This document shows, piece after piece, positions 23,298-24,104 of a stretch of 64,000 bases of DNA. The stretch covers positions 62,001-126,000 of the forward strand of contig JAEOTO010000031.1 in NCBI GenBank assembly GCA_016839805.1, read 5' to 3'. Within the stretch, counting starts at the first letter, position 1; each line of letters opens with the position of its first letter. The position numbers and the translations under genes were made by a program. Below the pieces are notes generated by a model. That model ran no database searches, was not told the origin of the DNA, and saw only the letters and a list, made by a program, of their open reading frames with translations. The stretch is from Candidatus Hermodarchaeota archaeon (GTDB taxonomy: Archaea > Asgardarchaeota > Hermodarchaeia > Hermodarchaeales > Hermodarchaeaceae).

Positions 23298-23343
23298 CTG
23301 GATCAGATTCCGCTGGTTTCGTACGCTGAAGAGTGAATAATCC

Positions 23344-23567
23344 CATCGTGAACTACCCCGCCCTGACGGACGGAGCTTCCTGCTTCATCCCATCGGCTTG
23401 TGCCGACTGGTCCACAGGCTCTACTCGCCGTTCCGGCGATGTTGCCCGGTCATGGGGTCTTGGTTCTCGGCCACCTGCCGGGACCTCAACTAGGACCTCT
23501 TGAAATCCTATTTAAACACCTCGATTCATTCCCGGTCTGAAAGGGCCGGGGTCTTCTCGAGGTTATA
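23344..23567 (-). mobile_element. Internally deleted IS200/IS605 (tnpB-type) element retaining left-end hairpin and omega-RNA region
   Basis: Read on the minus strand, the element begins near 23567 with a left-end hairpin (CCCCGGCC, loop CTTTCAGA, then CCGGG; 23531-23552), followed by AATGAAT. It ends at about 23344-23349 in GGGCGGGGTAGTTCAC after an imperfect hairpin (23358-23373). Between them is the 3' end of a tnpB frame. The spacing, hairpins and terminal GTAGTTCAC match IS605/IS1341 right ends, where the tnpB 3' end plus right end encode the guide-RNA (omega RNA) scaffold. No transposase or full TnpB is present, so it can only move in trans. Exact ends are uncertain by several bases. 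GC is clearly higher than its surroundings. Confidence 0.75.
23354..23512 (-). pseudogene. tnpB: TnpB C-terminal remnant
   Basis: An open minus-strand stretch of about 52 codons reads into PRPHDRATSPERRVEPVD and ends SAQADGMKQEAPSVRAG then TAG. The GMKQEAPS-type ending is characteristic of TnpB proteins of IS605/IS1341 elements. There is no start codon and an in-frame TAA lies directly upstream, so all catalytic RuvC residues are missing. The remnant overlaps the sequence that would form the omega RNA. Confidence 0.7.
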
Positions 23568-24104
23568 GATAAGAGGTAACAGTCGGGGAACTAAAAACGG
23601 TGTCGTGCGTTTGTATTCAAGATATTCTTCACCAAACCGTGCTTCTAACTGTGGTTCCTCGTACTTCTTGATTCGGATAACCATGATAACCAGAATAATC
23701 AAGGGAACAAGAATTGCCATTCCAAGCGATCGAAAGAGAAGCCCCATCCCAAGGGGAAGAAGCGTGTATCCTAGAGTGATAGGATTACGAATATGGGAGT
23801 AGATTCCAGTAGTAACGAGCAGAGTTGATTGAGCTTGTTTATCAAATGCACCCCAGGGGAGCCCCTTTCCAACTCTACGTAAATGGCGTGTTGCCTTAAT
23901 TCCGACTGCCGCTCCAGATGACATTATACTAGCGCCGATTATGAGGTTGTATGGAAAGGGAGGAAAAGGAGGAAGGAGAAAGATAGAATCCATCCATACA
24001 CCAGCTAGAATAGTGATAATCGGTACAAATAGGAATATGAGAAGATATGGTCCGATGTAACGCAATCGAATGGTTGGGAGAGAGGATGAATTTCTAGGTG
24101 GCAT
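23526..24104 (-). CDS. Isoprenylcysteine carboxyl methyltransferase-like membrane protein (tail from IS element)
   Basis: A 192-residue membrane protein with two N-terminal helices and a later helical hairpin. The SAM-binding region of the ICMT/PEMT family is visible: TTGIYSHIRNPITLGYTLLP and, near the end, YEEPQLEARFGEEYLEYKRTTPFL. Family members methylate prenylated cysteines, lipids or related groups at the membrane. The last residues EKTPALSDRE and the stop are encoded by the left end of the IS605-type element, so the insertion replaced the original C-terminus after LLPLIYNL; the catalytic region is untouched. It ends just after the nitroreductase-methyltransferase junction (6 nt gap), so they are probably one operon with it. 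Confidence 0.85.
   Translation of the reverse strand: MPPRNSSSLPTIRLRYIGPYLLIFLFVPIITILAGVWMDSIFLLPPFPPFPYNLIIGASIMSSGAAVGIKATRHLRRVGKGLPWGAFDKQAQSTLLVTTGIYSHIRNPITLGYTLLPLGMGLLFRSLGMAILVPLIILVIMVIRIKKYEEPQLEARFGEEYLEYKRTTPFLVPRLLPLIYNLEKTPALSDRE

Follow-up and report, generated by a model that had tools for sequence, protein, structure and literature searches.

A 221-bp IS200/IS605-type element without TnpB in a Hermodarchaeota genome, with a likely promoter and a candidate guide-RNA scaffold

The DNA analyzed here, referred to as the window, is a stretch of 64,000 nucleotides from the genome of a Candidatus Hermodarchaeota archaeon. On its minus strand lies a mobile element of 221 bp (23348..23568) with its left end at 23568 and its right end at 23348. 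These borders were derived from an empty orthologous site in a genome of the same genus (G004), where CCTCTTAT/ATTGGGATTATTCGCCC (locus L130) corresponds to CCTCTTAT/element/GATGGGATTATTCACTC in the window. They correct by 1-4 nt a sequence-only reading, made before this analysis, which had placed the element at 23344-23567 and the start of its flank at 23343 instead of 23347. The insertion point is directly 3' of a TTAT (23569..23572, minus strand, outside the element), and a target duplication is absent. Insertion 3' of a short target without duplication is a hallmark of IS200/IS605 transposition. TTAT, the presumed TAM, was present within 12 nt at the left end in 20 of 27 short copies compared, as opposed to a background of 4%. 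A second empty site was obtained by comparing the copy L009 (contig C44) with G004 (CATTTTAT/TGAGGTAATTTTAT). For L002 an empty site is not claimed, as G004 conserves the right flank only, and for L004 the comparison with G004 gave no answer, the locus being rearranged there. In L004 (C41:21397-21620 of the same genome as the window) the first 9 nt after TTAT repeat the start of the right flank (AGCCTCCAC), and in L008 (C4:7582-7805 of the same genome) the first 8 nt do so (AGTGTCCG). Such repeats of 8-9 nt occur in these 2 of the 27 copies, while the other scorable copies share 0-4 nt; they have the appearance of a duplicated target or of a footprint left by repair on the left side.

The insertion lies in a gene on the minus strand (23526..24104) that presumably encodes an isoprenylcysteine-carboxyl-methyltransferase-like protein. 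Its frame enters the left end of the element, so that the 3' end and the stop codon of the gene are now inside the element, while the ortholog in G004 continues beyond TTAT. As a result, the C-terminus of the methyltransferase-like protein is replaced and the stop codon is located in the left hairpin. At L002 and L009 it is the GTGAAC of the element that supplies the TGA stop of a neighboring gene. Neighboring genes that end inside the element at these three loci, as well as the position of copies in this genome between genes or at gene ends, would be in line with a co-option by the host, in which the copies are kept because they terminate transcription, supply stop codons or act as regulatory RNAs for their neighbors. 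We nevertheless regard a co-opted RNA or 3'-end structure as very unlikely, since at least two of the sites are empty in a congener, the guide described below has no second target of note, and gene-end positions are also expected from insertions that are tolerated by selection.

From the left, and read on the minus strand throughout, TTAT is followed by the left-end hairpin, TTTAAAT, a 22-nt spacer, a scaffold beginning with GAGGTCC at 23487, the right-end hairpin and GTAGTTCAC. The left-end hairpin (23519..23562) has the outer stem CCTCGA/TCGAGG, includes an inner hairpin CCCCGGCC..CCGGG (23551-23531) and has similar counterparts in full-length tnpB elements. The TATA-like box TTTAAAT (23510..23516), a putative archaeal promoter, and the spacer (23488..23509), which is of near-constant length and free in sequence, separate it from the omega-RNA-like scaffold of 140 nt (23348..23487), which is suggested by covariation and by covariance-model matches and has an inferred start at GAGGTCC. 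Within the scaffold lie the conserved apical loop GAGAACCAAG of a 5' stem (23459..23468), a GAA-loop hairpin TCGCCGGAACGGCGA (23425..23439), which is the counterpart of CCGAGGGAACCTCGG in tnpB-linked scaffolds, and the right-end hairpin with the terminal GTAGTTCAC (23348..23376). The right flank (23328..23347) would provide a 20-nt guide, GATGGGATTATTCACTCTTC, which in the empty allele, as inferred, comes after TTAT. The RNA fold of the whole element has a z of -3.8; together with 13 further matches at E ≤ 0.001 in the DNA of the same genome and with the two exact empty sites, this argues against the element being a product of chance.

Overlapping the 3' part of the scaffold, a relic of the tnpB 3' end was recognized (23353..23421, minus strand), whose translation EPVDQSAQADGMKQEAPSVRAG, followed by the stop, aligns by eye with GPVELSALAEASKQEAPSFRAG, the C-terminal end, likewise followed by the stop, of an intact TnpB encoded by this genome on its contig C41. 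The sequence-only reading had described a left hairpin, a tnpB-like tail of about 52 codons and a right end; all of these parts are present, but the visible homology to tnpB extends over about 22-33 codons. A protein-coding tail was rejected, because some of the 27 copies have the frame shifted or interrupted by a stop. For the same reason, and because the RNA pairs are kept by compensatory changes, we give hardly any credence to a short peptide, the TnpB tail, as the product of the element, even though the tail frame is open over about 33 codons in the window copy.

The element belongs to a multi-copy family. A DNA search of its own genome with a cut-off of E ≤ 0.001 gave 14 matches, namely the window copy, 9 other short copies, 2 right ends of tnpB elements and 2 end-only fusions. 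In the latter, about 45 nt in length, a left end is joined to a right end (L013, 1501-1545, contig C45; L014, 1480-1524, contig C39). R1, a covariance model based on the ten short copies of this genome, scores these at 213-233 bits, the element itself reaching 229 bits as the sole match in the window; the scores are 80 and 68 bits for the two tnpB-linked ends of the genome and 43 bits for one left end. R1 matches at E ≤ 0.001 were obtained in 20 of 59 genomes, including the own one. G002 (Ca. Hermodarchaeum yapensis) holds at least 15 short copies and G003 holds 2, so that short copies elsewhere, which had been envisaged from the sequence alone, are found within and outside the genome of origin. 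The 27 short copies compared consist of the 10 own copies, 15 from G002, where weaker matches are partly covered, and 2 from G003. An exact-pattern scan across named genomes returned 13 stretches, 11 of them from Candidatus Hermodarchaeum yapensis, one from Hermodarchaeota archaeon YT1_028 and one from an Acidobacteria bin. The last of these (L145), which would have been a bacterial relative, scored 23 bits, has no ends and was taken as chance. Among viral contigs, no relative was found via a scan with the C41 TnpB, and the core pattern had 0 matches. A different short element was noticed in G002 (L078, 6371-6672, C76:63470-63771), with a similar left end, a TTTATAA box, another scaffold and the right end GAGGATGTC; it is possibly another guide-RNA type.

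The degree of conservation differs strongly along the element. Among the ten own copies the mean pairwise identity is 0.97 for the box, 0.37 for the spacer, 0.90 for the 3' core, 0.73 for the right hairpin and 1.0 for the last seven columns, as compared to 0.41 for the outer left arm and 0.66 for the left hairpin. The distance from the box to the scaffold is 29 nt in the window copy and 28-30 nt in 25 of the 27 copies, as determined by a box search that tolerated variants; the exceptions are L080, with 19 nt, and L090, which is without a left end. In archaeal TATA promoters an A/T-rich box is located about 26-30 nt upstream of the start. The spacing observed here, counted to the putative start, agrees with this distance, and the TTTAAAT box is likely to be a promoter at a fixed distance from the start of an RNA. 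A similar box is found 29-32 nt before the tnpB ATG in 8 of 9 full-length tnpB elements of the genus. Thus, the scaffold of the short form sits where the coding start lies in the long form.

Furthermore, the secondary structure of the scaffold appears from the pattern of substitutions to be under selection. In the alignment of the 27 copies, which was corrected in one stem ahead of the covariation count, 91.8% of the cells pair, and compensatory changes occur in 19 of 38 pairs. None of 1000 shuffles reached this number (mean 10.6, sd 1.7), and slid controls gave 5-13. As an alternative, the element might be a plain PATE or MITE, of which the two ends alone matter while the scaffold is a functionless passenger. 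From Haloquadratum and Halanaerobium, PATEs have been described that retain a portion of the tnpB 3' end (PMC3119063, PMC7290912), and the end-only fusions L013 and L014 indicate that the core is dispensable for the existence of some copies. We consider this alternative unlikely, as the box and the core are conserved beside a divergent spacer and outer left arm, compensatory changes affect half of the pairs in the scaffold, and the distance between box and scaffold is kept, as it is by comparable elements of other families.

Full-length tnpB elements in the own genome and in the genus, among them the one on contig C41, have the same ends, a TTAT-type target and a homologous TnpB tail. Similar ends beside a tnpB gene and TnpB homology, on which the sequence-only reading depended, were therefore found, and the description of IS200/IS605-type ends and a guide-RNA region without TnpB in a non-autonomous element holds, the ends matching those of full-length tnpB elements and the scaffold being homologous. 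R1 matches the tnpB-linked scaffolds at 64-90 bits, and both kinds share the order of a 5' stem, the GAA-loop hairpin, a GCCTGTGGA..GAAGCAGGAA helix and the right-end hairpin. Of all scaffolds read, those of the short lineage alone have the 5' stem with the loop GAGAACCAAG, and each of the tnpB-linked scaffolds read from the genus has a different 5' stem. In a search with known omega RNAs, the Rfam motif RAGATH-18, a TnpB reRNA motif, matched at 23377..23418 on the minus strand with 26.5 bits (E 0.0084), which falls below the gathering score of 44.9 bits, so that this comparison yielded a weak match only; RAGATH-18 was found at E ≤ 1 in 2 of 16 other loci (L004, L005). At the gathering threshold, the Rfam search of the window detected only a tRNA.

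In an unrooted tree computed from the last 92 nt, a short stretch, of 27 short and 13 tnpB-linked elements, the short and the tnpB-linked scaffolds form two clades with a support of 100/100, within which the copies of the host genomes are interleaved. This suggests that the short lineage is old, spreads in its short form and does not consist of fresh deletions of resident tnpB copies, which refines the earlier description of the element as a deletion derivative.

By its anatomy, the element appears to be a PATE whose cargo, a guide-RNA transcription unit, is selected. It shares near-terminal hairpins of the IS605 type with full-length tnpB elements; insertion 3' of the target without duplication was seen at the two empty sites, with L004 and L008 as exceptions; and a transposase gene is absent, no TnpB ORF being present at the loci L001-L010 examined. 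Guide RNAs without an adjacent nuclease gene have reportedly been found before, in standalone omega-RNA loci of IscB rather than TnpB by Altae-Tran and coworkers in 2021, and in PATEs of Geobacillus by Meers and coworkers in 2023. The PATEs of Haloquadratum walsbyi, as far as the available text of PMC3119063 describes them, are likewise multi-copy elements with IS605-type ends, without transposase and without target duplication. One of them, HqIRS71, includes part of the transposase C-terminal coding region, and end-only forms of 52 bp resemble L013 and L014. The same text, which predates the omega-RNA, mentions no guide RNA or promoter, whereas the present element has a promoter-like box and a covarying guide-RNA scaffold that are conserved together. 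A PATE-like element of Halanaerobium hydrogeniformans is similar in that its about 271 nt comprise a 28-nt left end, the last 58 nt of tnpB and a 160-nt right end, but it is a single copy, and conservation or a promoter is not described in the portion of PMC7290912 at hand. The omega-RNAs of IS200/IS605 and the RAGATH-18 RNAs of IS607 resemble the RNA proposed here in having a scaffold that extends from the tnpB 3' end to the right end and a guide from the flank (excerpts of PMC11061315 and PMC10278001). However, the AmaTnpB RNA is processed from the tnpB mRNA, according to the latter excerpt, while that of the short element would be transcribed without tnpB from a likely promoter of its own. 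At the level of titles and opening lines of abstracts, the literature searched contains no recognizable description of mini-elements that combine a promoter and an omega-RNA without TnpB.

With regard to the protein partners, 11 TnpB matches are present in the own genome, some of them divergent ORFs. The TnpB of C41 aligns with ISDra2 TnpB (8bf8/8h1j) over residues 16-382 with 232 bits, and the alignment retains the RuvC D, E and D residues, which we take to be the catalytic acidic residues. Since the 5' stem of the short scaffold is unlike that of the tnpB-linked ones, loading by a resident TnpB remains a proposal. A Y1 TnpA was not found in the own genome or in G001, G002 and G003 (assemblies 75-87% complete, the own one 87%), and the mover in these genomes is accordingly a proposal as well. 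G004 has one Y1 TnpA, and G029, G042, G014, G016 and G041 have one to four each.

A search of the own genome with an 18-nt guide retrieved the guide itself and one site with 3 mismatches. As the reversed control also gave 1 match, a second guide target was rejected. Thus, the only evident target is the own empty site, and a role beyond this site is not visible. The earlier suggestion of a guide RNA directed at sequences matching the 3' flank would apply to the empty site of the element; the genome offers no other good match. In the retention model, as outlined in the accessible part of PMC11870625, the guide targets the element's own empty site. RNA-guided repression in trans of the TldR kind, instead of retention by cutting, would formally be possible if a nuclease-dead relative of TnpB used the guides, and some of the own TnpB ORFs are divergent as mentioned. 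It is highly improbable in our view, as the best-matching TnpB, that of C41, keeps the RuvC triad and the guide has no second target.

Standalone mini-elements are not confined to this family but occur elsewhere in the phylum. In G014, 9 of 12 loci examined contain a match while lacking a TnpB ORF, and in G029 a TnpB ORF is lacking from 15 of 20 loci examined, by means of a TnpB profile that is based on proteins of the own genome and may miss distant TnpBs. The distance from box to scaffold is 28-31 nt in 9 of 9 copies of G014, 33 nt in 2 of 2 copies of G016 and 25-31 nt in 9 of 11 copies of the family f13, in which 2 copies were not matched. Four f13 genomes contain 74, 65, 23 and 34 matches to the model R2, and short forms of about 204 and about 310 nt are mixed there with tnpB-linked ends. 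The architecture of likely promoter plus scaffold thus recurs in G014 and f13, and Y1 TnpA genes are present in genomes from these groups. In G029, another standalone type (L184-L193), about 300-320 nt long, has the same scaffold preceded by an additional conserved domain at the 5' side (GGAGGGATAATACGCACAC..GGTGCATACTCC). Mini-elements of about 267 nt in G041 (L116, L117) keep the tnpB fragment DRDLNACVNIA, which points to an independent internal deletion.

Taken together, we consider it probable, judging from sequence comparison, that the element is a non-autonomous IS200/IS605 transposon of the PATE kind, which expresses its own guide RNA and is served by TnpA and TnpB in trans. Transcription would start at about 23487 and proceed through the right end into the flank, yielding an RNA in which the 140-nt scaffold is followed by about 16-20 nt of guide, a record of where the element inserted. 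A TnpB from a full-length element would load this RNA in trans and, after excision of the short element, cut the resealed TTAT-GATGGGATTATTCAC allele, which would then be repaired from an element-bearing copy, so that the element is restored. With a Y1 TnpA mobilizing it in trans, the element would live as a hyperparasite, with a retention address of its own but with both enzymes borrowed. The multi-copy family is probably old in Asgard archaea and probably borrows its enzymes from full-length relatives. As to the wider claim that guide-RNA-only IS605 elements are a recurrent and selected class in Asgard archaea, which dropped both proteins, moved the guide RNA to just behind a promoter, where full-length relatives have the tnpB ATG, has been spreading since before the host species diverged and exploits resident TnpB in trans, each copy bringing along nothing but its retention address, we see the chances as evenly balanced.

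In existing catalogues, PATEs figure as non-coding repeats that bear ends. In the present case, what lies between the ends resembles a minimal cassette for expressing a programmable guide RNA, maintained by selection although the protein genes are gone, and the question whether a TnpB-less element resists loss through TnpB in trans becomes testable. A further yield is a large set of natural guide scaffolds for TnpB, 100-150 nt in length, in which compensatory changes occur, together with an archaeal case of a single nuclease that may be shared by dozens of guides scattered over the genome. If the wider claim is true, elements can steal RNA-guided retention, and many guides depend on one TnpB in the manner of a dispersed guide array.
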